A DNA stretch of 64,000 nucleotides from Zygnema cylindricum. Its lineage: Eukaryota > Streptophyta > Zygnematophyceae > Zygnematales > Zygnemataceae. Location of the stretch: the NCBI GenBank assembly GCA_037447655.1, contig JBBHKE010002782.1:257947-321946 (forward strand), in the 5' to 3' direction. Positions 7,283 to 63,660 of this stretch are shown piece after piece. Position 1 is the first letter of the stretch, and every line of letters starts with the position of its first letter. The notes beneath the pieces are model-generated. The model saw only the letters and a program-made list of their open reading frames with translations. It did no database searches and was not told the origin of the DNA. A program made the position numbers and the translations under genes.

Positions 7283-7699
7283 TGTTGAAATTAAAGGTAT
7301 TTCCTAGGTAATCTAAATGATTTAAATAGGAGCAGGAAAAAGCAGAAGCAGCCTGCTTCTAACTTCTCTCTCTAGCCCCCATACTTGTCGTAGTCACTGA
7401 AGGCTGGAGAGGAAGCTAGAGCCATGGCTGCCTATGCTTCTTTTAGAGTTAGAAGGCAGATCCTTGGCAAACTTACCAAAAGGATTGACGTACCCAGGAT
7501 TTGATCCTATTACCTACCATCCGTCAAAGTAGCCGTTAGTCTTGCCCTGTAGTCTAAGACCAATGCTGAAGTATATTGGGTACGATAGCTCCTTAAAGAT
7601 GACGAAATACAGAAGTTCGATTTACTGACAAACTGACCACAATCACACTGACACAGTTAAAATAGATTTACACCGGAAATGTAGTACTTCTATTTTAAA
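7283..7699 (+). repeat. 5' LTR of element C, first part
   Basis: This holds the U3 start. The conserved CATACTTGTCGTAGTCACTGA core near 7381 sits between CTCTCTCTAG and CTGGAGAGGAAG arms, with GCCATGGCTG after it. The antisense tRNA-like module has its B-box match GATCAAATC (minus strand) at 7498-7506 and a TTTT run on the minus strand at 7478-7481. The sequence stops at TTAAA (7695-7699), the left copy of the duplication made by element D, and continues at 14141. Confidence 0.88.
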
Positions 7700-13108: not shown

Positions 13109-14135
13109 TGGACCACAGAATACAAGAAGCCTCTAGATAGTATTTAACTAACCCACTTTAAGCCACAACCACTGCTGCCCAAGAAGGCAAACTGACAATT
13201 TGACTGCACCCGTGTGTAGCCTGGACTCCCCTGAGTCCGTAGAAAAAAGAAACACTGAAAACGGCCAACCAGGCGATAAGTTATAGGATGGCAAAGATGC
13301 CAATTTATACAAACTCTCTGAGAGAGAGGACTATCTACCTAAATTTTCCTAAGTCCTAGTTTTTCCTAATTCCCTCTCACAGCTCCTATCTACTGCCTGT
13401 ACGAACCAATCACAAAACTGTATAGTACTAGAAAGTACTACTGCCGATGTACCTTCTGTACGGCCTCTGTACGACAAGGCCATAAGTGGACGCGTGTATA
13501 CTTTCCACTCATCCGTACGTTCCTCGGAATTCCCGCGACCGAATGATGTCTCCCCATGTGGCGCCAGGTGATGCCACGTCACTAAATGCCAAAGTGACCA
13601 CTCCGGGATTTTGGCGATGATGTGCGCCGTTGGATTATATGCGAAACGTAATCTTGGCCGGAATAAATACTTGCGCGATATTTGTTCCGATGTAGAAATA
13701 AAATGCGTGGTATCCGTTTTGAATTAGCGTCGTACGACGTACTTTATAAAACTGTATATATGTACGCCGTAAACAGTTTTAGTTAAATGAACTTTATCCT
13801 TTCGAACTAAATATATATCTATCACATACCATAGCACTTAGCATTGGTCCTAGTCTATTAGGATAAAGCTGACCGCTACCGGACGATTTGACGAACCGCA
13901 GGTACCGTGATCAAATCTCTGGTCCGTCAAGTATATTTTTAGTAACCTACTAAAAATAGCTGTCTGTTGAACTAAGGCAGCCATGGATCAACCTCTCTCT
14001 CTTTCCTTCAGTGACTACAGCAAGTATGGGGGCTAGAGAGCGGAGGTGGAGGCAGGCTGTCCGTCCTTTTCTTTTTCCTTTTATATAACCATATTTAAAC
14101 CTAGAAAATACTCTAGAAATCTATAAATTTCAACA
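13089..14135 (-). repeat. 5' LTR of element D
   Basis: This is a near-identical partner of 7700-8746. Six GTAC palindromes lie between 13399 and 13472. The plus-strand antisense tRNA-like module has its B-box GATCAAATC at 13919-13927. The gag ATG (minus, 13106-13108) lies about 20 nt inside the internal end of the LTR. The outer end CAACA is followed by the duplication TTAAA. Confidence 0.93.
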
Positions 14136-14140
14136 TTAAA

Positions 14141-14715
14141 CGGCTATAAATTAAGGCCGACATCAATCTAACGACGGAGAAAGAAGCCGACATCGCGGAA
14201 TGGTTGATTTGGCGGTTTGCGGTCATTACCACAACAGGTGATATGTGGCAACATGACATTGGATAACGCCATCTCCCGGACACACTATGGCGAACCCGGA
14301 TAGGGAAGGCGTCGTCTTTCTGGCCATGTCATACAATGGCCGTACAGAAAGTACTTCGGACCAAGTACCTTTCTGTACTGTACACTCAATTTATTGGTTC
14401 CGTACATCAGTAGGAGAGGGTTTAGAGAGGGGATTAGGACTTAGAAATTTTGAGGTAGCCGCCTCTCTCTCACAAAGCTTTTGTATAAAAGGGTCATCTT
14501 TGACCATTGATAATTAACTGCTCAGGGGAGCAAATTCAAGGATTCTTTTTGTGGCAGACTCAGGGGAGTCAGCCCTTCCAAGGGGTGCAGTTTGGTCAGT
14601 CTGTATTCTGTCAGGGTGTCAGCAATATTCATACAAAGCTTAAAGAATTGAGGTTATCCTAGAGGCTACTAACAAGCTGCCTACTTTGAGTACCTATGGA
14701 GGTCTCAAAGTTGCA
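14141..14715 (+). repeat. 5' LTR of element C, second part
   Basis: This continues the LTR started at 7283 (together about 992 bp) and ends TTGCA at 14715. It includes GTAC palindromes around 14340-14410, a TATA box TATAAAAGG at 14484-14492, the inverted repeat GGTCATCTTTGACC just after it, and the leader hairpin GACTC-AGGG-GAGTC near 14560. The gag ATG lies at 14698, within the LTR. Confidence 0.88.
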
Positions 14716-17700: not shown

Positions 17701-19077
17701 GGTTTTACTCAGAAAGAGGGAATAGACTACGAAGAAACCTTCGCTCCGGTCGTCAGATTTCCCTCGGTCCGAATACTTCTCAGTCTCGCAGCTGTAGAAG
17801 ACATGGAAGTCCACCAGATGGACATAAAGAGAGCGTTCCTACATGGAGAACTAGCGGAGGAGATCTTCATGCGACAACCGGAAGGATTCGTGGAACAAGG
17901 AGAAGAAAGTAAGGTATGCCGGCTAATCAAATCTCTGTATGGTTTAAATCAAGCGCCTAGACAGTGGAACAAGAAACTTGATGAGTTCCTTACCAGTCTG
18001 GGATACTTTCGCATCAGTTCAGACCATTCAATTTATGTTTTTGAAGATGAGGAAGGTGTCATCTTTATTGCAATTTACGTTGATGATCTTCTTGTTCTTA
18101 GTAAGTCATTAAAGAAAATTAACAAACTAAAAACAGATCTAAAGGGAAGATTCAAAATGAAAGATATGGGGGAGGCAAGATATATTTTGGGAATACAAGT
18201 AGAGAGAAATAAGAAAAAGAGGATAATTAGATTAACTCAGAAAGAGGCAATTGGAAAAATGCTGGAAAAATTTTAGATGAACAAAGCCAACAGTTGAACG
18301 ACTCCCATGGATTTAAAGAAGGGAAGTGAGAGGAGTGAGGTAGGAGACATCCTAATTCTAGATGATGAACTAGGTCTAGAAGAAAAGAAGTTTATGCAGA
18401 CCATTCCATACAGACAGGTAGTGGGCAGTCTGATATATTTTATGAATTGTACCAGACCAGATTTGGCAGCAGTTGTAGGAGTGCTAACTACGAGTCTGAA
18501 TGCTTCTACCAAAAAGGATTAGGAAGCAACAAAAAGTGTCCTCAGATATCTCATTGGAACTAGGGATCTATGGCTGCATCTGGGTGGGGAAAACACTAAC
18601 ATCACCACTTGGAGTGATGTCAGCTATGGGGATGCTCCGATGAGAAGATGTACATCTGGATATGTGTTGTATGTGGGGAATGGTGCTTGTTGCTGGAGCA
18701 GTAAGCAGCAAAAGGTCATTGCTCAGTCTACCATGGAGGCAGAGTATATGGCATCTTGCTCAGCTGTGAAGGAATTGATGTGGGTCAAATCCTTGCCTGG
18801 TGAATTGGGGCATCTTAAGAGTGGAATTCAGAAAATATTTTGTGATAATCAAGCACCAATTGCAATTGCCGCTAATCCCAAACATCATTTTAAAGCAAAA
18901 CACATGGACATCAGACTTAGCTTTGTTAGGGAAAAGGTAGAGAACAAAATAATACGTCTAAAATACAGACCAGACAGTGAGATGGTGGTAGACATGATGA
19001 CTAAGCCTGTACCTTCTTGTAAATTATTTTTGTGCGAGAGAGATGTGGACTTAAAATTAAAAGTGACTAGGAAATAA
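14698..19077 (+). pseudogene. Element C gag-pol, decayed
   Basis: All copia domains are present in order: gag (ALCEKRFWGIVSG, then MAAKHFVLRHLNEGLAGPHL), zinc knuckle CHFCKKPGHYMAEC near 15600, protease, integrase (CSGCAQGK, YTDIWGP, SDNGGEY), reverse transcriptase with YVDD near 18080, and RNase H up to the stop at 19077. The protease motif reads DSRAS, so the Gly of the DSG active site is lost. Frameshifts lie between 14880 and 14940 and near 16290. In-frame stops include 16052, 17023, 18274, 18294 and 18520. The start codon lies in the LTR, as in element D. The copy is non-autonomous. Confidence 0.93.
14716..14728 (+). other. Primer binding site of element C
   Basis: GGTTATGGGCCCA follows the LTR end TTGCA directly and is identical to the site of element D. 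It is in frame with the gag ATG at 14698 and encodes VMGP. Confidence 0.8.
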
Positions 19078-19083
19078 GGGGAG

Positions 19084-19211
19084 TGTTGAAATTAAAGGTA
19101 TTTACTAGGTTATTTAAATGATTTAAATAGGAGCAGGAAAAAGCAGAGGCAGCCTGCTTCTAACTTCTCTCTCTAGCCCCCATACTTGTCATAGTCACTG
19201 AAAGCTGGAGA
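19084..19211 (+). repeat. 3' LTR of element C, truncated after 128 bp
   Basis: This starts TGTTGAAATTAAAGG directly after the polypurine tract and matches 7283-7410 closely, including the CATACTTGTC core. Homology stops at CTGGAGA, where gypsy sequence begins. No target duplication marks the junction. Confidence 0.88.
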
Positions 19212-20829
19212 CGGGCTCTCCAGGAATCCTTTGCCCAACTCCATAGATAATGGGGTAAGACAGGATTTTGATGGCGAAACGGTTGCCTCCCTATCGGCCG
19301 GAGCGCATCTGATCTACAGTTTTTCCGCTCCTACATATCACAAAACCGAACACGATCCATGGCGGGACATCCTTTTAATCCTTTTCCTATCTACTCAGTC
19401 TTTTCGGGCAGGCACCTTACCAATGGAAGAGGAGCGTGTTGGTAAGAGAGCCCAGAGTTACTTATGGATGGGGGGCTCACTTATTCGTCTTCTCTCAGAT
19501 GGAAGTCAACGGCACGTCCCACGACCGACGGAACGACTATCACTTATCAACCAAATTTATACAGACCTTGGACAATATGGCACCAAACGGACTTTGAGTT
19601 TGGTACACGCACGGTATTGGTGGTCCGCCATGCAGGCTGATGTGGCGGCTCTGTTGCAAGAATGCAGCACATGTGACCGGCTACGAACTTTATTTTCTAA
19701 CCGACAGTCCTCCCTTCAGCCCTTGCCTATTCGGGGTCTCTTTTACTGGTGGTCGTGTGATCTTGCAGGTCCCTTCCCCGTTTCTCGAAAGGGCAAACAA
19801 TACATCACGATAATGATCGAGAACTTTAGTAAATGGGTGGAAGTTGTGGCACTCTCACAGAAAACTGCCAAACTTACCACCGCAGCTTTCAAAGAGCATG
19901 TGTTTTTCCGATACGGAGCCCCCGCAGAAATACTTACCGACCAAGGAACCGAGTTCCGCGGCAAATTTTAAGAGATGCTGGACGAGGCGTTAATCGATCA
20001 CCAGCGGACGAGCCGAGATCATCCTCAAGCAGACGGTTTGGCAGAGAGAGCTGTACAAACCTTTAAGCTTGCTTTGCGTAAACATTGCTTGGAAAAACAG
20101 ATTACGGTGTGGGATGAATCATTGGGATATATTGTCATGGGTTATCGCATGTCTGTACAGGCCAGCCTGGCAAATTTCAGCCCCTATTATGTGTTGTTTG
20201 GTCGAAAACCACTATTAGGTAGGAATGTACAGAAAGCCGCGAGCTTACCTCTACCTCTTATGTCTGATTCTCTGTTTTTGGAAGAACTAACTAACCGAGC
20301 GTTGCTTTTTGCTAGAGAAATGCCCATGGCCTTTGAAAACTTGCAGATTGCCCAACATCGCGACTCTTTACGGTTTGCGACGACTCGCAGTGGCAGCTAC
20401 CGGCCACAACAAAAACCCTTTCGGGTGGGGGATTAAGTTTATTTGGGACGGCAGACTTTTGACACACTCGACACGGATGTTTCGGCTCTTATTTTGAGGA
20501 TAACAAATATCGACACCAATGGATTATTAAGCTTACAAGGGGCCGACACGCGAACTTTGCGGGAGCATTCGAAAAATTGTGCTCTTTGCTATCTACCTGA
20601 CCTTTCCCACAGCATGGACCCGTGGCGGATGCCGATTACCGAGGCCACTGAGTGCCAATTATGCCGGCGATCTGATGGAGAAACAACAATGCTCCTCTGT
20701 GACTATTGCAATCTGGGATTCCATATGGAGTGTCTGATTCCACCTCTACACACTATCCCGGCTGGACAGTGGTTTTGCCACGGGTGTCGCGATCTACCAG
20801 CTCTCCTGACCAGCTCCTCCGCAGGCTAA
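19212..20829 (+). pseudogene. Gypsy element G2: integrase followed by PHD finger
   Basis: This is the 3' third of a Ty3/gypsy pol in one reading frame with two stop codons (TAA 19969-19971 and TAA 20434-20436). The integrase zinc part shows YGTKRTLSLVHARYWW and CSTCDRL. The core shows WSCDLAGPFP (Asp), LTDQGTEF (Asp) and ADGLAERAVQTFK (Glu). A tail with GYRMSVQ and NFSPYYVLFGRKP follows. After a short linker (residues like DTDVSALILRI) comes a canonical PHD finger, and the frame ends at TAA 20827-20829. Everything upstream of the integrase is missing at the junction with the LTR of element C. G1 has the same domain order, so the PHD belongs to this gypsy lineage and takes the place where chromoviruses carry a chromodomain. 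Confidence 0.9.
20653..20786 (+). other. PHD finger at the C-terminus of the G2 polyprotein
   Basis: The zinc ligands are CQLC, LLCDYC, FHMEC and WFCHGC. The spacing is C-x2-C-x11-C-x2-C-x4-H-x2-C-x14-C-x2-C, with the conserved Trp two residues before the seventh Cys. This fits the C4HC3 PHD consensus exactly. PHD fingers commonly bind histone H3 N-terminal tails. A link to target-site choice is inference. Confidence 0.9.
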
Positions 20830-31380: not shown

Positions 31381-32415
31381 TGTAGAAATTGATGGTTCTT
31401 TTAGTATTTTTTAGGTCTAAATTGGAATACAAAAAGAAGCCAAGGCAGTCCGCCTCTAACTTCTCTCTCCAACTCCCACACTTGTTGCAGTCACTGAGAA
31501 GTTGGAGAGGAAGCTACAGCCATGGCTACCTAAGCTATCCACAGGTTTACGGGAAATAGATTAGTTGATTTACGGATAGGTAGGTTTATTTTCTAAAAGG
31601 AGTATGTCGGAACCAGGATTTGATCCTGGTACGTGGCGACCGTCAGAACGCAGGTAGCCGGTAGACTTATCCGTTAAGTCTAGACATTAAGATACATATA
31701 AGAGAGTTTGATATTTATTTAAATGTTGCCACGTAGGAAAATTTATTTAACGGCGCACAATTACGGATACATAGATCCAGTTATGTAAACGTACGGATTT
31801 TGGTATAGATTAAAAACGAGTAGCGCACATTTTGTTTCTTTTACGGCTGCGGTTGAAATATGCTTCAATCAGACGGCCGAAAAGAAAGCCGAGATCGCAA
31901 AAGAGATTCTCGGCGGTTTTTGGTCATCGCCACATCGGATGACACGTGGCACGATTACGTTGGATCACGGCATCTCCGGGAATTACGAGACCGAATCCGG
32001 ATATGATATGTGTCGACATTTAGGCCATGTCGTACAATATCCGTACATAAAGTACACCGAGCGCTGTACTTTTGTGTACAGCAGTATAATATGATTGGTG
32101 CCGTACACCAGTAGATACAGTTTTAGAGAGAGATATGACTTAGAAAAAATTGGTAGATAGGACCCTCTCTCTAGAGAGCTTTTGTACTAGAGGTCAACTT
32201 TGACCCTCCATAACTTAATTCTCAGGGGAGCAAATTCAGAGATTCTTTTTGCTATCGACTCAAGAGAGTCTTGCCTTCACAAAGGTGAAGGTGGTCACTG
32301 TTTTTGTTCGCCAGGGTGGAAGTTATTCGTGCTGAAAAAAAAAAGGGTCAGGGTTAACCTAGAGGCTTTGTGTGAGCTACTTACTCTGAGGTCTTATGGA
32401 GGTCTCAGAGTTGCA
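31381..32415 (+). repeat. 3' LTR of element G (subfamily I)
   Basis: The LTR is 1035 bp, from TGTAGAAATT to GAGTTGCA. It contains a CACGTGGC box near 31942, a GTAC cluster near 32030-32110, and a TATA box decayed to TGTACTAG. It also has the inverted repeat GGTCAACTTTGACC at 32192-32205 and the leader hairpin GACTC-AAGA-GAGTC. The antisense module has its B-box match GATCAAATC (minus) at 31617-31625 and a perfect 8-bp D-arm-like stem TAGACTTA/TAAGTCTA near 31660-31685. Confidence 0.9.
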
Positions 32416-33877
32416 CAGCGGGCCCGAGCTGCCAAGAAGAATGTTTCTTTCAAATTGAGGAACATACTGGGGTGGGAAGCCGAAGCGAAGGAAGAAAAGG
32501 AGGAACCACCAGAAGCGACTCCGGCTTCATCGAGTGTAACACCAGTTGAACGTGTACCGGAACTGCCCCTGCCTGAACCGGAAGCACCAAGGATCGCTCT
32601 CGAGGAAGGAGACGAGCAACTGAGGTGGCGAATCACTCAGCACCGGCTAGCAGCAGTTGATCATCGCACTAGCCTCTTGGAAAAGAGATTCAAATACCTA
32701 CAAAGCTACATCGATGACCTCCGGGATAACTATAACTCTGAGACCCCCATAGGTCCTAAAACTAGGCATTCACACGAAGCCTCTAAGATAACTCTGACCC
32801 CTTTTTGTTTCAGCAAGAATAACTGTCACCTTGACGGGTAAAAACTCTAACCATCTTCACATTTGTAAAGGCAAGACTCCCGTGAGTCTATAGCAAAAAG
32901 AATCTTTGAATTTGCTCCTCTGAGCAGTAATTTATGAAGGGTGAAAGTTGACCTTTTGTAACGAAGCTCTCTAAGAGAGAGGGTCCAATCTATAAAAAAA
33001 AAAAAATTCCTATCTCTCTCTAAAATTGTATCTACTGAAGTACGGCACCAATCATAATAGTGTATCGTACATAAAGGTAAAGGTGTCGGTGTACTTTTTG
33101 TTTGGCCATTGTACGACATGGCCAACAAGTCGACACATGTCACTTTTGGATTCGTTTTTGTAATCCACGGAGATGCTGTAATCCAATGTGATTGTGCCAC
33201 GTGCCAATTGATGTGACGTAGACCGCAAATCGCCAAAAACCTATTCCGCAATTTTGACATGCTTCGTGGCCGTCCGATTAAACCGGATTATAATCGTGGC
33301 CTTCATAAATACTTGCGCAATGTTTGTTTTGTCTTCGAAACACGATGCGCGGTATCTGTTTCAGATGTTTCGTACGTCGTACATTACAAACTGTATCTAT
33401 GTCTAAATATCTCGTTAAATGAAATATCCTACGTGTTAACATTTAAATAACTATCAAACCTTGATATCCTATATCCTATAACCTTGATCTTAGACTAATT
33501 GGCTAAATCAACCGGCTACCGGCTACCCTGAAGGCCGGCAGGTACCATGTTTAAATCCTGGGTCCGTCAATATCTATTTTGGTAAAATCTACCAGCCTAA
33601 TGTCTGTCCCCGTCGGGATAGCATAGGCGGCCATGGCTTTATCTCCCTCTCCAACTTTCAGTGACTGCGACAAGTGTGGGAGCTGGAGAGAGGAGTTAGA
33701 GGCAGACTGCCTCTGCTTCTTTTCTGCATTTTACAAAACCTAGAAAATACTAAAATAACCTGTAATTTCTACAATAACCACCAACAACACATTCGGAGGT
33801 TCAATGCGCTCCATCAAGAGTTCCAAGATTACCGCAGCGAGATGGATGATCCACTTCAACAAATGCAGTTTCCCTAA
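32416..33877 (+). pseudogene. Unidentified reading frame, split by solo LTR H
   Basis: Right of the element G LTR, an open frame (32416-32730) encodes a basic start (ARAAKKNVSFKLRN), a Glu/Pro-rich linker and a charged helical stretch (RITQHRLAAVDHRTSLLEKR), probably coiled coil. It breaks at solo LTR H (32731-33773). Skipping H and one duplication copy, the frame continues from 33779 and stops at TAA 33875-33877 with more helical, Gln-rich sequence. This agreement shows that the frame predates H. I recognise no domain. It may be the tail of a retroelement gag or a cellular exon. Confidence 0.5.
32731..33773 (-). repeat. Solo LTR H (subfamily I) with duplication ATAAC
   Basis: This 1043-bp LTR in minus orientation is flanked by perfect ATAAC duplications (32726-32730 and 33774-33778). 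Its outer end reads TTTCTACA. Its inner end has decayed from TG to TA. The plus-strand antisense tRNA-like module has a B-box with one mismatch (GTTTAAATC, 33549-33557) and a TTTT run after it. Only the LTR remains, as after recombination between two LTRs. Confidence 0.93.
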
Positions 33878-34413
33878 TGAGCAACATTCAGCAAGACAAT
33901 GAACTGCTAGTGGGAGGCACTCTAATCCGGTTTTTGAATGGAAGCAGAGTTCAGAAGCTCCTATAGTTGCAATGTCATAGCAGTGCAGCAGCGATGTCAT
34001 ATTAGCGCAGCATAGCAACGCAGTAAAGCAACAAAGCAATGCAACTTAACAGCATATCAATGTAGAAAAATGTAGATTGAACTATATAGTTCTACAACCT
34101 AGTGTAGATAGGGTGCGGTTAATGAAGAGTCTCAACGTTTACATAATTGACCAGCTGTAGTACCGGATTGACTAGCAAGTAAGTAGTTTAAATAGTGGGT
34201 AGACTTAGTGAAGAGACACACTCTTTTGCGAGTAGAGTTCTCCCAACAAGCAATCAATTTTGTTATCCCTTTCTCGGAGAAATATAAACTTTCAAGCTCT
34301 TCATTGTGTATGCTGTGTACACTATGAGCTCTTGCTGTTGCTACGAGTGAACCCCTAGTTATATTTCACTGTGTACTATCGCTGTCTGTGGACTAGTCTC
34401 ACCCCTTTTACAC
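33878..34413. other. Unassigned sequence, possibly a short LTR remnant
   Basis: There is no open frame worth calling. TGTAGATAGGG near 34102 and TTTTACACA near 34413 could bound a 310-bp LTR-like piece with an AT-rich TATA-like TTTAAATAG near 34187. I found no second copy in the window, so this stays a guess. A run of short GCA-rich repeats (AGCAGTGCAGCAGCGATG) lies near 33980. Confidence 0.25.
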
Positions 34414-35041
34414 AAGGAGGGAGGGAGGGAGGGAGGGAGGGAGGGAGGGAAGGAGGAAGAAAATGATGGAGGGAGAGAGGGAGAGTGGAAGAAAGTGAGG
34501 GAGAGTGAGGGAGGGAGGGAGGGTAAGAAGGAGAGAGGTCTAGAGAGAGATATCAAAGAAAAAAGGGAGGGAGGGGGGTAGGGAGAGAGGGAGGGACGGG
34601 GAGAGAGGGAGGGAGAGAGGGAGAGAGAGGGAGAGATAGGGTGAGGGGGGGTGAGGGAGGGAGGGAGGGAGAGAGGGAAAGAGGGAGGGAGGGAGGAAGG
34701 GAGGGAGAGAGATATAGAGGGAGAGAGGGAGGGAGGGGGGGAAGGGAGGGAGGGAGGGAGGGGGGGAGAGAGGGAGGGAGAGAGAGGGAGAGAGAGAAAG
34801 AGATATGGTGAGAGAGGGACGGGGAGGGAAAGAGGGAGGGTGGGAGAGAGAGGGAGAGAGAGGGAGAGGGAGGGAGAGAGAGGGAGAGAGAAGGAGAGGG
34901 ATGGAGAGGGAGGGAGAGGGAGGGAGGGAGAGAAAGAGCGAGGGAGATGGGGAGAGAGGGGGAGAGGGAAAAATAAAGGGAGAGGGAGAGGGAGAGGGAG
35001 TGGGAGAGGGAGAGGTAGAGGGAGTGGGAGAGAGAGAGGGA
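34414..35041. repeat. GA-rich low-complexity tract (GGGA/GA repeats)
   Basis: About 630 bp of almost pure purine on the plus strand is built from GGGA, GGAGA and GA repeats. It ends exactly where the element I LTR begins (35042). The long open frames in it on both strands are artefacts of composition. Similar tracts lie at 62529-62690 and 63661-63760, also against LTR or element edges. Confidence 0.95.
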
Positions 35042-36095
35042 TGTAAAAATTAATGGTTTTTTTAAAGTATTTTCTAGGTCTGATTAGAAATATAGAAAGA
35101 AGCCGAGGCAGTCTACCTCTAACTTCTCTCTCCAAACTCTCAAACTTGTCGCAATCACTGAGAAATTAGAGAGGAAGCTAGAGCCATGGCTACCTAAGCT
35201 ATCCAGAGGTTTACAGGATATAAATATTAGTAGGGGTTTATTTACTAAAATTATATGTGACAGCTCCAGGATTTTATCTTAGAACCTACCGGCCGGTAAA
35301 CAGTCAGTAGCCGGTAGCTTTAACCGTTAAGTCTAGAGATAGTGTTACGTAGTGTAGGGTTTCATATTTAATTAAACATTAATACGTAGAATAGTTCATT
35401 TAACTGAAATAGTTTTACGGGAGACAGAAATCCAGTAATGTAAAAGTACGGATTATGGTACGGATAAGAAACGAATACCAAGAATTTATTTCTTTAGCAA
35501 AACGAATACCGCGCATGTATTTATTACGGCTACGCTTAAATGTGAATTTAATCGGACGCCGAAATTAAACGTCGAGATCGCAAAAGAGAATTTCAGCGGT
35601 TTTTTATCGTCGCCACATCGAATGACACGTGGCGGATTGACATTCGATCGCGGCATCTCCGAGGATTAAGGGAGCGAATCCGGATTTACCACGTGTCGAC
35701 ATTTAGGGCATGTCCTACAATGTTCTTACAGAAAGTACACCGCCAGCTATACTATTGTGTACCGAGGAGTAATCTGATTGGCTCCGTACATCAGTCGATA
35801 GAGTTTGTGAGAGAGATAGGACTTAGAAAAATTAGGAGATAGGACCCTCTCTCCCAGAGAGCTTCTGTACAAAAGGTCAATTTTGACCCTCCATAACTTA
35901 CTGCTCTGGGGAGCAAATTCAAAGATTCTTCTTGCTATCGACTCAGGGGAGTCTTGTCTTCACAGGGGTGAAGTTGGTCAGAGTTGTCTGCCAAGGTGGC
36001 AGTTGTTCTTGCTGAAACACAAAAGGGCCAGGGTTATCCTAGAGGCTTTTTCGAAGCTGTCCACTCTTAGGACTTATGGAGGTCTCAGAGTTACA
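35042..36095 (+). repeat. 5' LTR of copia element I (subfamily I)
   Basis: The LTR is 1054 bp, from TGTAAAAATT to GTTACA. It has a CACGTGGC box near 35626, CACGTGTCGAC near 35690 and several GTAC sites. The TATA box is changed to TGTACAAAAGG. The inverted repeat GGTCAATTTTGACC and the leader hairpin GACTC-AGGG-GAGTC (35940-35953) are present. The antisense module is partly decayed (GATAAAATC near 35269, one mismatch to a B-box). The primer site AGTTATGGGCCCA (36096-36108) follows. Confidence 0.92.
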
Positions 36096-40051: not shown

Positions 40052-40846
40052 AACAAATATTCTGACCACTCTCACCCCTGTGAGGACAAGACTCGCATGA
40101 GTCAAACGCAAAAAGAATCACTGAGTTTGCTCCCCTGAGTAATAAGTTATGGCTGGTCAAAAATGACCTTTATAGTTACAAGCTCTCTTAGAGAGAGGTA
40201 CCAAAATTCACTAAGTCCTGGTTTGCCTACTTATAACTGCCTACTATTAAACCCTAGTCAAATAGAAACACTATATAGTAGAAGAAGGTTCACTAGGCGA
40301 TGTACTTATTGTACGGCCATTGTACGATATGGCTTTCAAAGTGACGCTTGTCAAAACGGGAGCCATGGTTCCTCCTCCCATCTTCTCCGGTATCCAATAG
40401 TATGGTGCCACATGGCGTCGCGTGACGCTATCCTCTAAGGCCGTCGAAAGTTTATTGCAGATGGCCGCTGCAATTGTGGCTGTCGGATCATTTCTATTTA
40501 TGCGGCTACTATTCGCTTCCATGCATGAATTGATTAATGCGTGTTTTCGTTAGTCTGCTTTAAATTAGTCCGTTTAATAAATAGATGAATATGCGTGAAA
40601 CGTAATACGTATATTGTTTTGCTATTGCCTTAATGGATAAGGCTTAGCTCTAGATAGTAGTCCGTAGACCCCGGTTGAAATCGCGCCAGGGATAGTATTT
40701 TTCTATAAATATTAAAATACCTTCTATTTCATTCTGCCTCTTTCTAAATGACGCGGCAGCCATGGCCTGTCTTTGGTTCTCTCTTTCTCTCTCTTTACAT
40801 TCTAACTAAAATATAGAAGTGAACTATTAATTACCTTTTTTCAACA
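40052..40846 (-). repeat. 3' LTR of copia element J (subfamily IV), U5 end missing
   Basis: This matches 45295-46087 but lacks about 107 bp at its inner (plus-left) end, where it fuses directly to element I. Its outer end is TTTTCAACA, preceding a CTCCCC polypurine complement. The plus-strand antisense module has D-arm stem GCCTTA/TAAGGC near 40627, B-box GTTGAAATC (one mismatch, 40674-40682) and a T5 run after it. Confidence 0.88.
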
Positions 40847-45207: not shown

Positions 45208-46087
45208 TGACCCAGAAATAAGTAGCCTATGTAAAGCCTCTAGGATAATATTTGCCCCTTCTACTTTCCCGCTGAATAAGCGCCACCCAAGCACACAAAT
45301 ATTCTGACCACTCTCACCTCTATAAGGACAAGACTCCCCTGAGTCAACCGCAAAAAGAATCACTGAAGTTGCTCCCCTGAGCAGTAAGTTATGGCTGGTC
45401 AAAGATGACCTTTTTAGTAACAAGCTCTCTTAGAGAGAGGTACCAAAATTTCACTAAGTCCTGGTCTGCCTACTTACGACTGCCTACTACTAAACCCTAG
45501 CATAATAGAAACACTATATAGTAGAAGAAGGTACACTAGGCGATGTACTTATTGTACGGCCATTGTACGACATGGCTTTCAAAGTGACGCCTGTCAAAAC
45601 GGGAGCCATGGTTCCTCCTCCCATCTTCTCCGGTATCCAATAGTATGGTGCCACATGGCGTCGCGTGACGCTATCTCCAAAGGCCACCGAAATTTTATTG
45701 CGGATGGCGGCTGCAATTGTGGCTGTCTGATCATTTGTATTTATACGGCTCCAATTCGATTCTATGCATGAATTGATTAATGCGTGTTTTCGTTAGTCTG
45801 CTGTAAATTAGTCCATTTAATAAATAGATGAATATGCGTGAAACGTAATACGTATATCATTTCGCTAGTGCCTTAATGGATAAGGCTTAGGTCTAAATAG
45901 TAATCTGTAGTCCCCAGTTCAAATCCGGCCAGAGGCTGTATTTTGCTACAAATAGTAAAATACCTTATATTTCATTCTGCCTCTTTCTAAATGACGTCGT
46001 TGCCATGGCGTGACTTTGGTTCTCTCTTTCTCTCTCTTTACATTCTAACTAAAATATAGAAGTGAACTTTTAATTACCTCTTTTCAA
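45188..46087 (-). repeat. 5' LTR of element J (subfamily IV)
   Basis: The LTR starts TGGAATTCTG and runs about 900 bp until TTTTCAA, where it fuses to a truncated element K LTR without CAACA. The plus-strand antisense tRNA-like module is the most tRNA-like here: D-arm GCCTTA-ATGGA-TAAGGC (45870-45886), B-box GTTCAAATC (45917-45925), TTTT (45941-45944), and the hairpin GTATTTTGCTA/TAGTAAAATAC (45938-45963). The leader hairpin GACTC-CCCT-GAGTC lies at 45332-45345. Confidence 0.9.
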
Positions 46088-46632
46088 AATCCTTCCACGT
46101 GGCGCCAAGTCATGCCACGTCCATAAACGCCAAAGTGACCATTCCGATATCCCAGCAGTGATGTATGCCGTCGGATTAAATCCGACATTCAATGTCGACC
46201 GTCGAAACAAATGTCCGATTCATTTGTTTCGTGCGAAATGACGTCCGCACTGAAACTGAAACTACTTCTATGTTCCTTTATTCAAATTTTAGTTTATCGG
46301 TTTCAAGACCATGTACCAATTTAAATATGTATCAAACACTATGTACTTTAACGGACTTCTACGACAAACTGGTTAAAGAAAACGGCTACACCGTACTCTA
46401 TCGGTCGTAGGTACGAATCCTGTCGGACTCAACCTTTTTGTTGAGAGTGACATAAGTCACTCTTTAGTCCAGCCTGTTGAACTAAGGCATCCATGGCTCA
46501 ACCACCCTCTCTGTCCTTCAGTGACTACGACAAGCATGGTGTGTGGAGGCAGGTTGTCAACCCTTTTCTTTTCTTTGTTATACTAACATATTTAGACCTA
46601 GAAAATACTCTAAAAATCTATTAATTTAAATG
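46088..46632 (-). repeat. 3' LTR of copia element K (subfamily V), truncated
   Basis: Only the U3 side remains, starting at a CACGTGGCGCC box. It matches the LTRs at 49305-50292 and 58066-58742. The plus-strand antisense module has GTACGAATC (one mismatch to a B-box, 46411-46419), T5 (46435-46439) and hairpin GAGTGAC-ATAA-GTCACTC (46445-46462). The junction at 46087 with the element J LTR has no duplication. Confidence 0.88.
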
Positions 46633-49299: not shown

Positions 49300-49304
49300 C
49301 TTTC

Positions 49305-50292
49305 TGCAATTTTGTGTCCTCCATTGGACTACAGAATACAGGAAGCCTCTAGATAGTATTTAACTAGCCCACTTTAAGCCACGATCACTGCTGCCCAAGA
49401 AGGCAAACTGAAAATTTGACTGCACCCCTATCCTGCCTAGACTCCCCTGAGTCCGTAGCAAATAGATTCACTGAAAACTGCCAACCAGCCGATAAGTTAT
49501 GAGTCGGCAAAAATGCCAAGTTTTATACAAACTCTCAAAGATAGAGAGGTTCCTATCTACCAAAATTCTCTAAGTCCTAACTATTCACAAACCCTATCTA
49601 TTGAAGTACGAACTAATCCGATCACTGTAGAGTACAGAAAAGTACTATGGCCGATGTACTTTCTGTACGGCCCATGTACGGCAATGCCATTAAGTGGACG
49701 CGTGTCCGCTTTTCACTTGTCGGAATTCTTGCGACCAAATGTCATCCCTCCGCGTGGCGCCACGTCACGCCACGTCCATAAACGCCAAAAGTGACCATTT
49801 CGTGATCTCGGCATTGATGTACGCCGTCGGATCAGATTCGATATTAAATGTCCGCCGTCGAAAACAAATGTCCGATTCATTTGTTTGCGTGCGAGATAAT
49901 GTTCGCACTATATAATACTTGGTTCCATGTTCTTTCGTTTGTAATTCTGTTAATCGAATTCATAGACGTAACATTGTTTAAGTAAATATCAAACCTAATG
50001 TATGCTAACGGACTTCTACGACAGACTGGTTAGAGCTAACGGCTAAGCCGCGCTCTACCGGTCTGAGGTTCGAGTCCTGACGGACTTAACCTTTTGTTGA
50101 GAGTGACATAAGTCACTCTTTAGCCCTGCCTGCTTAAGCTAGGACAGCCATGGCTCAGCCACCCTCTCTATCCCTCAGTGACTACGACAAGTATGGTGGG
50201 AAGAGAGAGGAGGCGGAGGCAGGCTGTCCACCTTTTCTATTTGTACTAAGTTCAGACCTAGAAAATACCATATAAAAATAATAATTTCAACA
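49305..50292 (-). repeat. 3' LTR of element L
   Basis: The LTR is 988 bp, from TGCAATTTTG to TTTCAACA. Six GTAC palindromes lie in 74 bp (49606-49679). A minus-strand TATA box lies at 49521-49527, and the leader hairpin GACTC-CCCT-GAGTC at 49440-49453. The plus-strand antisense module is at 50024-50118: hairpin arms, B-box GTTCGAGTC (50068-50076), TTTT (50092-50095), then GAGTGAC-ATAA-GTCACTC (50101-50118). The conserved AGTGACTACGACAAGTATGG core is near 50179-50198. Confidence 0.93.
50024..50095 (+). other. Antisense tRNA-like module in element L LTR (type example)
   Basis: Three nested stems are readable: GACTGG (50024-50029) with CCGGTC (50058-50063), TAGAGC (50031-50036) with GCTCTA (50052-50057), and CGGC (50040-50043) with GCCG (50047-50050). 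GGTTAGAGC resembles the tRNA D-arm and A-box. GGTTCGAGTCC (50067-50077) is a textbook T-arm and B-box. TTTT at 50092-50095 would end a polymerase III transcript. The acceptor stem is absent. The module runs opposite to the element. Function is inference. Confidence 0.55.
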
Positions 50293-53300: not shown

Positions 53301-54653
53301 AAGATTTTTACTCAGCTGAGGAATGTAAAGTACATCTGAGAATGTAAGTATAGAAGTCTTACCCTTCACTAAGACTTTCAGATCTACTGATCCCACTAGA
53401 TCTGTAGTAACCACTCTCCCATCCCCATACTATATCTCTACAGTACGAATCTTTCTTAACTTAGTGAAGAGTTCTTTATCACGACACGTATGCATGGATG
53501 CACCTGAGTCGATGATCCATCCTTCCTATGGAGCTTCTCGGATTGCTCCAAGGGCACACTTCTGCCTCCGAGGAATATCCTTCTCCTCCAGACTCTCGTC
53601 AAGAAGAAGTTCCCCATCCTCCTCAGATGACTCGTCCTCGGTTTCTCCTGACACTTTTGTAACCACAAGTGCCTTTTTCTTCCCTCCGGAAGAACCCCCT
53701 CCACGGTTCTCTTGGAGCCTCAGCTCTCATAGCTTCACACAATCTGCTATAAAGTGTCCCGACTTTTTGCAATAATGACAAAGACTCTTTGAGGGCCTTT
53801 GTCCCCCAGAATGATCTCTCTCCCCTCTATAAGGTTTCTTTGGGTCCTTCCCCCATCGGTCCCCTCTTGCTGCTAGAGCTTGAATGCTCTTTCCTCCTCT
53901 CCTAATCTCCATTGTGTTTTCCTGCACAAGTATCATCCTGACTACTGTGTTCCATTTCCATGAACTATCAGGCATTCCCTATACTCGGTACACTATGTTT
54001 TAGAACTCATCTGGTAATTTCATGATAACGGTGTTAACTTTCATTTTCATTGTACCTGTCCACCCGGCACTTTCCATTTCCATATACAGACAAGAAAGAT
54101 CATTACAGTAATCTAACATCTTTCCTCCTTTGTAAGTGTAACTCAATAGCTTTTGCTCAGCCAACTAGAGCTCCTGAATAGTTCCAGCTCTATAAATCTC
54201 CACCAAACTCTCCCACAACTCCTCGGCCTTGTAAATGTGAAGATGAGGAGTGGCCAAACCTTGAGTGAGGTGCCTCAGAATGAAGTTCTTGGCAGCCATG
54301 TTTACATCCTCCCACATTTGAGTATCGTTCTCCACGGTCTTCACGGTCGCCGCTCGCGATACTGTGACAATAGGAGTGAGGGGTGTCTCTATCCCTTTCT
54401 CCTTTTCGGACACACTGCTGTCCCGATCATCTGCCTCCTTTGCTGAGGCGGCCGTTGTTGCAGAAAACCTTACTCCCCCAAATCCTGCTGGAGTTCCTGA
54501 AGGTGGACGTTTCACTTGTCCACTGACGATACCCTAGTATCGTTTCTCACACAAAGCTCCTATCATCATGGCTTCCGAATAGATGAACCCAGATCCATTG
54601 AAGGTGGGCACCCTAGAGGGTGGGCCCATAACCTCCAATTCTGTGTCCTCCAT
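50306..54653 (-). pseudogene. Element L gag-pol, moderately decayed
   Basis: This minus-strand copia polyprotein has its ATG at 54651-54653 inside the LTR and crosses the primer site (54621-54633). Gag, zinc knuckle CHYCKKSGHFIADC near 53750, protease start near 53520, integrase (CSGCAQGK; HTDIWGP; SDNGGEYTSN), and a long intact reverse transcriptase/RNase H stretch of 372 codons (50395-51513) with IYVDDLLVLSKS and CDNQTAI follow. Stops or shifts near 51520, 51705, 52130, 52560, 52670, 53430, 53530 and 54000 inactivate it. A 2-base loss near 50402 shifts the RNase H end. It is close to element D in sequence throughout. Confidence 0.93.
54621..54633 (-). other. Primer binding site of element L
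   Basis: GGTTATGGGCCCA on the minus strand, identical to elements C and D, abuts the LTR. Confidence 0.8.
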
Positions 54654-55625
54654 TGGACTACAGAATACGGAAGCCTCTAGATAGTATTTAACTAACCAAC
54701 TTTAAGCCACGATCACTGCTGCCCTAGAAAGCAAACCGACAATTTGACTGCACCCCTATCCTGCCTGGACTCCCCTGAGTCCGTAGCAAAAAGAATCACT
54801 GAAAACGGCCAACCAGCCGATAAGTTATGAGTCGGCAAAAATGCCAAGTTTTATACAAACTCTCAAAGATAGAGAGGTTCCTATCTACCAAAATTCTCTA
54901 AGTCCTAAATCCCTCTCACAAACCCTATCTATTGAAGTACGAACTAATCCGATCACTGTAGAGTACAGAAAAGTACTATGGCCGATGTACTTTCTGTACG
55001 GCCCATGTACGGCAATGCCATTAAGTGGACGCGTGTCCGCTTTTCACTTGTCGGAATTCTTGCGACCAAATGTCATCCCTCCGCGTGGCGCCACGTCACG
55101 CCACGTCCATAAACGCCAAAAGTGACCATTCCGTGATCTCGGCATTGATGTACGCCGTCAGATCAGATTCGATATTAAATGTCCGCCGTCGAAAAACAAA
55201 TGTCCGATTTATTTGTTTGCGTGCGAGATAATGTTCGCACTATATAATACTTGGTTCCATGTTCTTTCGTTCGTAATTCCGTTAATCGAATTCATAGACG
55301 TAACATTGTTTAAGTAAATAACAAACCTAATATATGCTAACGGGCTTCTACGACAGACTGGTTAGAGCTAACGGCTAAGCCGCGCTCTACCGGTCGGAGG
55401 TTCGAGTCCTGCCGGACTCAACCTTTTGTTGAGAGTGACATAAGTCACTCTTTAGCCCTGCGTGCTTAAGCTAGGACAGCCATGGCTCAGCCACCCTCTC
55501 TATCCCTCAGTGACTACGACAAGTATGGTGGGAAGAGAGAGGAGGCGGAGGCAGGCTGTCCACCTTTTCTATTTTGTACTAAGTTCAGACCTAGAAAATA
55601 CCATATAAAAATAACAATTTCAACA
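54634..55625 (-). repeat. 5' LTR of element L
   Basis: The LTR is 992 bp. Its inner end has changed from TG to TC. It carries the same motif order as its partner: GTAC cluster near 54937-55010, CGCGTGGCGCCACGTCACG box near 55082, and B-box GTTCGAGTC at 55400-55408. TTTT and hairpin GAGTGAC-ATAA-GTCACTC follow. Confidence 0.93.
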
Positions 55626-55630
55626 CTTTC

Positions 55631-56692
55631 TCACCTCTATATGTGGCGGCTTTGGGAAAGGGAAGTCTGTGAGCCTTACCTTAAGCACAACCACTATAAT
55701 CATCCATCATTTCATTATCCCAAACTAAATGTCTTCTACTACCCCAAGTTTTTTCATTTCCCTTAAACTATCAAAATGCACATGAGCCAATCGCTTATGC
55801 CAAATCATCAAGTTAGGAACACCAACATAGTAAGCATTCTTTTTTGCATTACTTAGGTTAAGCCTAAACATTCCTTGGCTACCCTTATCTACCGTGAAGT
55901 AAACTTCATCCCCATACTTAGCTGTAAAGACTCCCTTTCTAGTGAAAGTATCAAACGCTTTGTCATCTAACACAGACGTAGAGACAAGATTTTTACTTAG
56001 CTGAGGAATGTAGAGTACATTTGAGAATGTGAGTATAGAAGTCTTACCCTCCACTAAGACTTTCAGATCTACTGACCCCACTAGATCTGTGGTAACCACT
56101 CTCCCATCCTCATACTTTATCTCTACAGTAGGGATATTTCTTAGCTTAATGAAGAGGTCATTATCACGACACATATGCATGGATGCACCTGGGTCGATGA
56201 TCCATCCTTCCTGTGGAGCTTCCCGAATTGCTCGAAGGGCACACTTTTGTCTCCGAGGGATCTCCTTCTCCTCCAGACTCTCGTCAATAAAAAGCTCCCC
56301 ATCCTCCTCAGAGGACTCATTCTCGGTTTCTCCTGTCACTTTTGTGACCATAAGTGCATTTTTTTTCCCTCCAGAAGAACCCCCTCCACGGTTCTCTTGG
56401 AGCCTCAACTCCGACAACTTGACAGAATCCGCGATAAAGTGTCTCGGTTTTTTGCAAAAATGACAAATACCATTTGGGGGCCTTGGTCCTCCAAGCTGAT
56501 CTCTTTCCCTTTGTACAGTTTCTTCGGGTCCTTCCCCCTCGAAGGTGGACGTTCACTTGTCCACTAACGATACCCCATTATCGTTTTTCGCACAAAGCCC
56601 CCATCATCATGGCTTCCCAATAGATGAACCCAGATCCATTGAAGGTGGGCGCCCTAGAGGGTGGGCCCATAACGTGCAATTCTGTGTCCTCT
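55631..56692 (-). pseudogene. Element K gag, protease and pre-integrase part
   Basis: This is the 5' coding part of element K, continuing from the cut at 49299. A 230-codon open piece (55725-56417) holds the region after the zinc knuckle, the protease start with DPGAS in place of DSGAS, and the pre-integrase zinc HKRLAHVH. The zinc knuckle reads CHFCKKPRHFIADS, so its last Cys is lost. About 645 bp of gag, relative to element D, is deleted at about 56541. The start codon is ATA instead of ATG. The primer site is at 56662-56674 with one change. Confidence 0.9.
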
Positions 56693-56988
56693 ATTGGAGT
56701 ACAGAATTCAGGAAGCCTCTAGATAATTTTTAACTAACCCACTTCAAGCCACAACCACTACTGCCCAAGAAGACAAATTGAAAGTCTGACTGCACCTTTG
56801 TGTAGTGTGGAATTGTTTGAGTCCGTAGCAAAAAAAATCACTGAAAACGACCAACCACCCGATTAGTTATGAGCCGGCAAAACTGCCAATTTTATATAAA
56901 GCTCTCTTAGAGAGAGGTGGCTACCTACCAGATTTTCCGAAGTCCTAAACCCCTCTCACAACCCCTATTTTTTAGAGTACAAACCAAT
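56675..56988 (-). repeat. 5' LTR of element K, first part
   Basis: This is the inner end (TGCAATTCTG) of the LTR, up to the CCAAT duplication (56984-56988) made by solo LTR M. It holds the decayed leader hairpin near 56810. It continues at 58066. Confidence 0.9.
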
Positions 56989-58060
56989 TATAGAAATTAA
57001 TGGTTCTTTTAGTATTTTCTAGGTCTAAAATGAAATGCAGAAATAGAAGCCGAGGCAGTCTGCCTCTAACTTCTCTCTCTAACTCCCACACTTGTTCCAG
57101 TCACTGAGAAGTTGGAGAGGAAGCTAGAGCCATGGCTGCCTATGCTATCTATAGATTTACGGGTAATAGATTAGCTGATTTACAAGTAGTAAAGTAGTTT
57201 ATTTACTAAAAAGAACACTGTCGTTCCTAGGATTTGATCTTGATACCAACGGTTAGTTAATGTTGCTGGTAGCCGGTCGACTCATCCATTAAGTCTATGA
57301 CTAGTGGTAAGTGATACAGGGATTAATAAGTATATAAGCGTTACCAATGCATGCTAATTCATTTAACGGCAACTATATACGGGATACATATAGTCAGTTA
57401 TAAAAAATAAGGATTACGAGTACGGATAAGAAACAAGTACCGCGCATTTGTTTCGATAGCAAAACAAATAACACACAAATATTTATGACGCCTAGGATTG
57501 AAATCGCAATTCGATCGGACGGCCGGAAAGAATACCGAGAACGCGGAAGAGGATTTTGGCGGTTTATGGTCACCGCCACATCGGATGACACGTGGCACCA
57601 CGACATTGGATTTCGGCATCTATAGGGATAACGGAAACGAATCCGTATATGACATGTGTCGACTTATTGGCCATAATGTACAATGTTTGTACAGAAAGTA
57701 CACGGCAGCTATACCTTTTAGTACGGCACAGTAATATGATTGGTGTCGTATATCAGTTGATAGATTTTTAGAGAGAGATTGGACTTAGAAAAATTTGGTA
57801 AATAGGACCCTCTCTCCTAGAGAGCTTCTTTACAAAAGGTCAACTTTGACCCTCCATAACTTACTGCTCGCAGAGCAAATTCAAAGATTCTTTTTGCTAT
57901 TGGCTCAGGGAAGTCTTGCCTTCACAAAGGTGAAGGTGGTCAGAGTTTTTGTCTTCCAGGGTGGCAGTTATTCTTGCTGAAACACAAAGGGGTCATGGTT
58001 ATTTCAGAGGCTTCTTGCAAGCTGTCCATTCTGAGGACCTATGGAGGTCTCAAAGTTGCA
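56989..58060 (+). repeat. Solo LTR M (subfamily I), duplication CCAAT
   Basis: This 1072-bp LTR in plus orientation is flanked by perfect CCAAT duplications (56984-56988 and 58061-58065). Its first bases are TATAG instead of TGTAG. It contains CACGTGGC near 57590, five GTAC sites near 57680-57725, GGTCAACTTTGACC (57839-57852) and the minus-strand B-box match GATCAAATC (57231-57239). It sits inside the 5' LTR of element K. Confidence 0.94.
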
Positions 58061-58065
58061 CCAAT

Positions 58066-58742
58066 CACATGACTGTAAAGAACAGAAAAGTACGACGGCC
58101 GATGTCTTTTATGTACGGCCTGTGTACGATAAGGCCACTGAGTGGACGTGTGTCACCCTTCCACTCGTCCCTATGTTCCCTTGAATTCCTGCTACCAAAT
58201 GTTATCTTTCCATGTGGCGCCAAGTCATGCCACGTCCATAAACACCAAAGTGACCATTCCGGGTTCTCACTAGTGATGTATGTCGTCGGATTAAATTCGA
58301 CATTAAATGTCGGCCGCACAAATGTCCGATTCATTTGTTTCGTGCGAAATGACATCCGCACTGAAACTTAAACTACTTCTATGTTCCTTTATTCACATTT
58401 CACTTTATCGGTTTCAAGACCATATACCAGTTTAAATATATATCAAACACTATGTAATTTAACGGACTTCTAGGACAGACTGGTTAGAGCAAACGGCATT
58501 GCCATACTCTACTGGTCGGAGGTTCGAATCCTGCCGGACTCAACCTTTTTGTTGAGAGTGACATAAGTCACTTTTTAGTCATTCCTGTTGAACTAAGGCA
58601 GCCATGGCTCAACCACCCTCTCTATCCTTTAGTGACTACAATAAGTATGGTAGGTGGAGGCAGGTTGTCCGCCCTTTTCTTTTCTTTTTTATATTGGCAT
58701 ATTTAGACCTAGAAATACTCTAAAAATCTATTAATTTCAACA
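58066..58742 (-). repeat. 5' LTR of element K, second part
   Basis: With 56675-56988 this makes a 991-bp LTR ending TTTCAACA. The plus-strand antisense module holds the most canonical B-box in the window, GGTTCGAATCC (core 58522-58530), with T5 at 58546-58550 and a GAGTGACATAAGTCACT hairpin after it. Confidence 0.92.
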
Positions 58743-58749: not shown

Positions 58750-59755
58750 TGCAATTTTGTGTCCTCCATTGGACTAGGGAATTCAGGAAGCCTCTGGGTG
58801 ATTTTTAACTAACCCACTTTTAACCACAACCACTGCGTCCCAAGCAAACAAATTCATAGTTTGACTGCACTCCGGTGCAGTCTGGACTCCCCTAAGTCTG
58901 TAACAAAAGAAATCACTAAAAACGGCCAACTAGGCGATAAGTTATGAGGTGGCAAAGGTGGGAATATATACAAACTTTCAAAGAGAGAGATGACTGTCGA
59001 CTAAAAAATTGCTAAGTCTTACTTCCATTCACAACCCCTTTCTACTGCAGTACGATCCAATCAAATAACTGTACCGTACAGAAAGGTACTACGGTCGATA
59101 TTTTTTATGTACGGCATGTGTACGACAAGGCCATTAAGTGGACGTGTGTCCACCTTTTACTCGTCCTTATGTTCTCCGGAGTTCTCGCGACCAAATATTA
59201 TCTCTCCACGTGGCGCCTGGTGATGCCACGTTCAAAAACGCCAAAGTGATCATTTTGGGATCTCGGTGGCGATATGTGCCGTTAGATCAAACACTAACAT
59301 TTAATGTTAGCCGTTGAAAAACAAATGTCCGATTCCTTTGTTTCGTGTGGGATCATGTTGGCACTAAATATTAACTAGTTCTATATTTCTTCATTCGTAA
59401 TTCCGTTAATCGGATAGAAGATCATAATATAGTTTAAGTAATTATCACACCTTATATATTTTAACGAACTCTTACGACTGACAGATTAGAGCTAACCGCT
59501 ACGCCTCGCTCTGCCGGTCGGAGGTTCGAGTCCTGCCGATTTCAACCTTTTGTTGAGAGTGACTTATATCACTCTATAGTACTGCCTACGGAGCTGAGGC
59601 AGCCATGGGTCCACTACTCTCTCTCTCCTTCAGTGACTACAACAAGTATGGGGGATAGAGGAAAAAGGTGGAGTCAGACTGCCTGCGGTTTTTTTTTTTT
59701 TTCTACTAATCTATTCAGACCTAGAAAATACTCCATAAATCTAGTGATTTCAACA
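58750..59755 (-). repeat. 3' LTR of copia element N (subfamily V)
   Basis: The LTR is 1006 bp, from TGCAATTTTG to TTTCAACA, preceded by AGGGA (58745-58749). The plus-strand module has B-box GTTCGAGTC at 59524-59532 and TTTT shortly after. A GTAC cluster lies near 59050-59125 and the hairpin GGACTC-CCCT-AAGTC near 58882. Confidence 0.92.
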
Positions 59756-62795: not shown

Positions 62796-63660
62796 GATGG
62801 ATCCCAGTCGGAGAAAAGAAATCATTGAAAGGCCAAAGAAAGATAAGTTATGAGGTGGCAAAGATGCGAATATATACAAACTCTCAAAGAGAGAGGTGAC
62901 TGTCTTGTAAAAAATTGCTAAGTCTTTCTTCCCTTTCACAACCTCTATCTACTACAGTACGATCAGATGAAACAACTATACAGTATAAAAAGGTACTACG
63001 GTCGATGTCCTTTCTGTACGGCCTGTGTACAACAAGGCCATTAAGTGGACGCGTGTCAACTTTTTACCCGTCTTTGTGTTCTCTGGAATTCTCGTGACCG
63101 AATATTATCTCTCTACGTGGCGCGAGGTCATGCCATGTCCAAAAACGTCAAAGTGACCATGTCAGGATCTCGCTGGCGATAATTATCGTTAGATCAAACA
63201 CTGACATTTAATGTTAGCTATCAAACAAATGTTTTATGCATTTGTTTCGTGCGGGATCATACTCGCACTAAATATTAACTAGTTCTATATTTTTTCATTT
63301 GAAATTCCGTTAATCAGATAAAAGATCATAACATAGTTTAGGCAATTATCACACCCTATATATTCTAACGAACTCCTACGATAGACTGGTTAGAGCTAAC
63401 GGCTACGCCTCGCTCTGCCAGTCAGAGGTTCGAGTCCTCTTGGACTCAACCTTTTGTTGAGAGTGATTTATGTCACTCTATAGTCCTACATATAGAGCTG
63501 AGGCGGCCATGGCTCGTTTAATCTCTCTCTCCCTCAGTGACTACAACAAGTATGGGGGGTAGAGGAAATAGGTGGAGGTAGACTGCCTGCGCTTTTCTTT
63601 TCTTTTTCTACTATTCTATTCAAACCTAGAAAATACTCCATAAATCTAGTGATTTCAACA
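62796..63660 (-). repeat. 5' LTR of element N, inner end missing
   Basis: This matches 58900-59755 and ends TTTCAACA, followed by AGGAA (63661-63665). With AGGGA at 58745-58749 this is a probable 4-of-5 target duplication, so both LTRs belong to one element. The module has B-box GTTCGAGTC at 63428-63436. Its outer stem GACTGG/CCAGTC (63384-63389 and 63418-63423) is fully Watson-Crick. Confidence 0.9.

Follow-up and report, generated by a model that had tools for sequence, protein, structure and literature searches.

What does a short, tRNA-gene-like segment do inside the long terminal repeat (LTR) of a Copia element when it lies on the strand opposite to that of the element? The question is raised by a module at 50017-50095 (plus strand) of the window, meaning the whole 64-kb stretch of DNA analysed here. 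The module consists of an A-box/D-arm-like part (50017-50034), a B box (50068-50076) and a terminator TTTT (50092-50095), and it is held by the 3' LTR (49305-50292, minus strand) of an element referred to as element B.

Element B and a second element of the window, element A, both on the minus strand, have the structure expected of Copia elements, namely target-site duplications (TSDs) of 5 bp and TG..CA LTRs, in both elements examined, with the one exception that the 5' LTR of element B ends in ..GA in this copy. The 3' LTR of element A (7700-8746) is 99.1% identical to its 5' LTR (13089-14135) and the TSD is TTAAA, while in element B the 3' LTR is 96.6% identical to the 5' LTR (54634-55625) and the TSD is CTTTC (49300-49304 and 55626-55630). 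Integrase precedes reverse transcriptase (RT) within one frame of element A (rve 137-235, RVT_2 515-603), and the coding region of this element is split over two overlapping frames. The element length is ~6.4 kb, with coding frames containing Copia domains between the LTRs, and it is in this sense, judged by the frames present, that the elements are called autonomous. Directly after the 5' LTR, the primer-binding site of element A (13074-13088, minus strand; 15 nt) and that of element B (14 nt tested, as the query began one base in) are exact complements of the anticodon arm of an initiator tRNA-Met from the same genome. Reverse transcription of both elements is thus most likely primed by a host half-tRNA, and since the primer-binding sites match this tRNA, the module can be ruled out as a self-primer. 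Two of the initiator sequences (L155, L156) equal that of the plant cytosolic initiator tRNA, which makes a green plant or a closely related alga the probable host; a fungal host, to which a short COX1 fragment had pointed, was rejected. Among the best 120 of 561 protein relatives, identity ranged from 33 to 48%; no relatives were found in viral contigs, none were confirmed in a database of genome contigs, and none were near in plasmids.

A B box antisense to the element was found in all 16 LTRs of the window that reach the site, exact in 12 and with one mismatch in four. On the plus strand, in addition to the focal module, exact B boxes lie in the LTR spans of element A (modules 8461-8550, B box 8520-8528, in the 3' LTR; 13850-13939, B box 13909-13917, in the 5' LTR), in the 5' LTR of element B (55349-55427, B box 55400-55408), in a D-type module (45866-45944, B box 45917-45925) and in three further modules at 58471-58549 (B box 58522-58530), 59473-59551 (59524-59532) and 63377-63455 (63428-63436). 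On the minus strand, they lie in three C-type modules at 1791-1878 (B box 1813-1821), 31595-31682 (31617-31625) and 57209-57296 (57231-57239), and in a module at 7478-7558 (7498-7506). The one-mismatch B boxes belong to plus-strand modules at 33489-33580 (B box 33549-33557), 40623-40701 (D-type; 40674-40682) and 46360-46438 (46411-46419) and to a C-type minus-strand module at 35247-35335 (35270-35278), and their mismatches fall at fixed positions of the pattern. That the exact boxes vary at degenerate positions alone follows from the way the pattern is built and carries no weight as evidence. The initial annotation had reported the 12 exact boxes on the same strands, and also the four one-mismatch boxes, and all of them are real, with one exact box placed 10 bp off (at 13919-13927 rather than 13909-13917). 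It had also described a T run as usually following the B box, which understated the regularity, as TTTT starts 15-19 nt past the B-box end in 16 of 16 copies. The A box had been described as part of a D-arm hairpin; a D-arm-like element is indeed present, and 39-48 nt separate its D-loop GG from the B box in the 14 of 16 window copies where a simple motif located the GG, but the description as a hairpin holds only in part, as the D-stem pair -54/-40 of C-type copies is A-G in 42 of 68. The window LTR fragments without a module, at 14186-14719, 19074-19211 and 56675-56947, correspond to other LTR portions and do not extend to the site.

LTRs were also picked blind to the module by a motif in U5. 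In the eight window LTRs having this motif, its distance to the B box is 531-632 bp, and it gave 9,733 matches, against 31 for the reversed motif in the same 352.8-Mb genome. Out of the 100 matches heading the list, 80 were selected for sampling as 501-base stretches, near neighbours that are likely the partner LTR of one element being mostly skipped, and 78 were obtained, as two overran contig ends. An exact B box was found on the module strand in 61 of the 78 loci and on the opposite strand in one, with dinucleotide shuffles giving a mean of 5.8 and a maximum of 12, and an exact B box followed 8-30 nt later by TTTT was found in 57 loci and in none on the opposite strand (shuffles: mean 0.8, maximum 5). 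A chance origin of the pattern of B box and TTTT is excluded. Among the 17 loci without an exact B box in the sampled stretch, nine show one mismatch at the expected place, one has its exact B box in the adjoining sequence (L130), one holds a D-type module in which TTTT is present and the B box shows two mismatches (L090), and one has a D-type module interrupted at the B box by another LTR (L071); in the remainder (L087, L103, L120, L127 and L133), the LTR matches omit the module region or another LTR sits there. Overall, the module is complete in 72 of the 78 loci, ten of them with mismatches, and none of these U5-picked loci has an LTR that runs through the region without a module.

Two modules 148-165 nt apart occur in 11 of the 78 loci (L075, L079, L081, L089, L091, L096-L099, L101 and L125, of which L098 and L099 are near neighbours and alike). 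In five of them (L079, L089, L091, L101 and L125) both B boxes are exact and each is followed by TTTT, and the count includes two loci in which one module has no TTTT (L081 and L097); four others (L084, L093, L138 and L142) were left out, the extra match lying outside a module and being mostly a word in the hairpin described below. The first module of this LTR type is D-like and the second C-like. The type could be a recombinant, or it could represent an ancestral state with alternative losses.

The boxes are conserved within a part of the LTR that otherwise changes fast. In 26 C-type LTRs picked by U5, the mean pairwise divergence is 0.14. Positions 200-340, with values of 0.20-0.28, belong to the most variable parts, but within them divergence falls to 0.13-0.14 at the B box and D-arm. 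In a larger C-type set (n = 69: 39 U5-motif loci, 25 U5-query loci and five window copies, two truncated loci having been dropped), where p values treat sites as independent and ignore ancestry shared among copies that all come from one genome, the seven specified B-box sites have a mean pairwise identity of 0.919, against 0.694 at the other sites in -140 to +90 (p 0.0003), T4 has 0.958 (p 0.001), and the A-box core lies modestly above background (0.801, p 0.026). With p values to be read in the same way, the first modules of D- and E-type LTRs (n = 29) give 0.924 for the B box against 0.63 at other sites (p 0.0006) and 0.83 for the A core (p 0.003), and T4, compared by its mean, stands at 0.952. 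The excess of B-box conservation over the flanks, on which the initial annotation had staked its reading, is thus found by test for the B box and T4 of C-type copies and for the B box of D/E-type copies. When the comparison is widened to all of the C-type stretch examined, the B box is equalled or exceeded by 13 of 403 other 9-mer windows, and the highest 10-nt conservation averages are found in the U3 hairpin and past it. The 27 B-type copies, at a divergence of 0.055, resemble one another too closely to contribute much. About -100 to -80 from the B box, C-type copies have a conserved AT-rich stretch with TATCAAAC, which resembles the signals, TATA-like and CAA, that mark the transcription start in plant tRNA genes.

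The terminator is regular in its placement. Across a set of 69 module rows, of which 66 are distinct because three repeat window copies, TTTT begins 14-19 nt beyond the B box in 65 (62 of the distinct ones), and the 41 nt after the B box contain TTTT in 67 rows and AAAA in seven. In the C-type copies, the T run is exactly four long in 57 of 69 and five long in nine, and 10% of 18-nt control windows reach four. A point against the Pol III reading is that in the set of 69 module rows TTTT also occurs between the A and B boxes in seven and AAAA in four, so that internal stop signals are not fewer than their complement. Twelve host tRNA loci were located by pattern, six of initiator tRNA-Met (five of which ARAGORN called) and six of tRNA-Arg; T4 or T5 lies 14-19 nt after the B box in six of the 12, and the other six have no T4 at that distance. 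The terminator spacing of the modules therefore overlaps the range of host tRNA genes, and the combination that marks a type-2 RNA polymerase III (Pol III) gene, namely an A box, a B box and a T run at tRNA-like spacing, is present, with the A box weaker than the B box.

The reading that best accounts for the observed position, strand, box-specific conservation and terminator, for the presence in the sampled LTR groups and for the tandem pairs in one group is that each LTR of this Copia group probably carries in U3 a type-2 Pol III unit antisense to the element, from which a short antisense U3 RNA would be made. The parts of this predicted unit are the A-box-like D-arm, a B box separated from the D-loop GG by 39-48 nt, and T4 ~15-19 nt past that box. 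TFIIIC would bind the boxes of the module, Pol III would start ~10-20 nt before the A box, and the product would be an antisense RNA of ~90-110 nt that is complementary to U3 in the RNA of the element itself. An antisense RNA always matches its own template, and therefore only promoter and terminator would need keeping, which fits the pattern seen: the letters of the module RNA itself drift in the spacer while the boxes stay. This drift fits either an antisense RNA whose target changes along with it or a role for the transcription or the bound complex. Worded in the initial annotation as an antisense Pol III transcript that may regulate the element, or else the fossil of a captured tRNA or short interspersed element (SINE), the proposal has held up in part, namely in its promoter and terminator signals, which are conserved, with a terminator spacing that overlaps that of host tRNA genes, and its fossil alternative has been weakened.

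As to function, it is tentatively proposed that this large Copia group, autonomous in type, has in its LTRs an antisense Pol III gene of its own, in one or two copies per LTR, and may keep it to control the element through transcription or through antisense RNA, which would make it a regulator that an LTR retrotransposon encodes for itself. Two roles, antisense self-limitation and the upkeep of an open or insulated LTR by a Pol III complex, appear to us equally possible, and neither could be called probable. The latter overlaps with an alternative in which TFIIIC bound to the boxes would form an insulator or extra-TFIIIC site, or the boxes would open the chromatin by the LTR promoter, any RNA being a by-product; this alternative is possible if somewhat doubtful, and overlaps in turn with the antisense Pol III unit itself. 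It could explain why the spacer and acceptor parts vary freely and why the tRNA stems are not kept, and assembled Pol III complexes are described, in the accessible text of the source, as having extra-transcriptional effects on neighbouring Pol II transcription (PMC4228148). In C-type copies, however, the conservation of T4 equals that of the B box in strength, and since binding alone needs no terminator, real transcription is favoured over TFIIIC binding alone.

The conserved words might also be sense-strand sites for Pol II or host factors that resemble Pol III boxes by chance. Promoter sites are expected in U3, and conservation by itself names no factor, yet three linked signals (A-like, B and T4) share one strand and T4 lies at the distance found in half of the host tRNA loci, which makes this explanation unlikely.

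The likeness of the module to tRNA was also assessed. ARAGORN detected no intact tRNA in the window or in four D-type loci, and no Rfam tRNA match was obtained at E up to 1 in the window or up to 10 in three module-bearing stretches; the modules thus have no recognised cloverleaf of a functional tRNA gene. In C-type copies, several T-stem pairs are often broken and the D-stem is broken in most. Together, these results rule out that the module is an intact tRNA, and the part that is kept is the promoter and terminator, not the tRNA fold. A tRNA-derived origin is nevertheless likely for D/E-type modules. Of 26 D- and C2-labelled loci, 25 have a module D-arm that is 1-4 edits away from the D-arm of host tRNA-Arg, GCCTAATGGATAAGGC. 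The closest among five shuffles differs by 3-6 edits, and the D-arms of L072 (five edits) and L104 (four edits; shuffles three) are no better than shuffles. Because of the proximity in most loci, a tRNA-Arg-like ancestor is suggested for the D- and C2-labelled modules. In B-type modules, the D-arm is different in appearance and may derive from elsewhere.

This closeness to host tRNA-Arg would equally be expected of a captured tRNA or SINE head that is now a passive fossil. The fossil explanation is disfavoured and in our view improbable, because the box sites are kept while the spacer drifts; box-specific conservation within a fast-changing part of the LTR, occurrence in 72 of 78 loci when mismatches are allowed, and two modules per LTR in one group all stand against it.

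An inverted repeat of ~88 nt (50142-50229), identified by folding and by its pairing in C-type copies, separates the module from the start of the LTR. It is present in A-, B- and C-type LTRs and strongly conserved near the LTR start, and D-type copies seem, by eye, to retain one arm only. A Pol III transcript might be imagined to read through T4 into this U3 hairpin and yield a hairpin RNA precursor like those of retroviruses. The inverted repeat does lie just downstream on the same strand, and its 41 pairs are mostly kept in C-type copies. However, the hairpin, which a Pol III pri-miRNA cassette has inside its transcript, sits here beyond the T4 of the module, and it would therefore be part of a Pol III RNA only by read-through of this T4, itself one of the best-conserved module sites. 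Downstream of the hairpin, a T run of at least four is found in only 25 of 69 C-type copies, and wobble counts in the hairpin (294 on the module strand, 176 on the other) leave the strand undecided, so that such a precursor seems quite improbable.

Finally, that the module lures new insertions into the element's own LTRs, as Ty1 integrates within ~1 kb upstream of Pol III genes (PMC7175516), is the least credible explanation and very improbable: of seven readable junctions inside other LTRs (B at ~551, ~597 and ~683, D at ~429, C3 at ~981, C-type at ~196, and a D-type B box), five are upstream with respect to the Pol III direction, seven being too few to test, whereas 60 LTR flanks were mostly unmatched in a small library and the rest match internal regions as well as LTRs.

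Pol III signals in retroelements have precedents, which are considered here as far as the accessible text of the cited papers describes them. Helenus elements (TRIMp3; Kojima 2024) are tiny non-autonomous LTR elements of 311-1263 bp with tRNA-like sequences and probable Pol III promoters, found in fungi, animals and one lycophyte (PMC10886601). They share with the present LTRs the tRNA-like A and B boxes, which mostly do not form functional tRNAs and do not serve as primer. They differ in size and coding capacity, as the elements described here are not short and non-autonomous but span ~6.4 kb with integrase and RT frames, and in orientation, as the boxes of Helenus are regarded as its own promoter and the module here is on the strand opposite to the element, an orientation that does not suit them to drive the element RNA. 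Autonomous partners of Helenus have been argued to need Pol II and to be unlikely to share a long LTR stretch with TRIMp3 (PMC10886601), and the word "antisense" is absent from the accessible text of that paper. In both Helenus and Cassandra, which are non-autonomous, the promoter is held to serve the element's own RNA (PMC10886601, PMC10853983). Cassandra uses a 5S promoter (PMC10853983), and the 5S-type LTRs of Cassandra and Ajax resemble those described here in having a Pol III promoter within the LTR, but they belong to non-autonomous elements and their promoter is 5S-derived, unlike the tRNA-like modules; no Rfam 5S match was obtained in the window at E up to 1. In bovine foamy virus, a Pol III miRNA cassette is located in U3 (PMC7693620), and the Pol III microRNAs of bovine leukemia virus (BLV) come from the positive strand (PMC4855707). 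The likeness is a Pol III unit inside a retroelement genome; these cassettes make hairpin miRNA precursors, whereas the present module is antisense and has its terminator ahead of the hairpin. Ty1, a member of the Copia group, provides the other half of the comparison, as its short antisense RNAs inhibit transposition (PMC7175516). Ty1 antisense RNAs start in gag, however, with no tRNA-like promoter described in the accessible text, and copy-number control has been traced to truncated Gag (PMC7175516). The component parts are thus known, and within the open-access literature searched, a scope that leaves subscription papers aside, and as far as its accessible text goes, no antisense Pol III unit in the LTRs of autonomous elements, and no such arrangement inside coding Copia LTRs, was found.

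Pol III promoters in LTRs are known from tiny non-autonomous elements, in which they take the place of the usual promoter. Should the antisense unit be confirmed in coding Copia elements, one LTR would serve two polymerases in opposite directions, and the group would offer a direct test of self-encoded Pol III antisense control against Pol III complexes shielding the LTR promoter. It would also illustrate that numerous LTRs can harbour tRNA-like promoters that tRNA finders miss.

Other features were observed beside these elements. A further retroelement frame with Integrase_H2C2 and rve lies at 19195-19971 (plus strand), and a candidate retroelement frame, known as an open reading frame alone, at 4313-5167 (minus strand). 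A long low-complexity tract with spacings of 8 and 12 bases occupies 34402-34921 and continues onward. Elsewhere in the assembly, a short COX1-like fragment (L144, G000:C364:339106-339234) sits beside Copia sequence.
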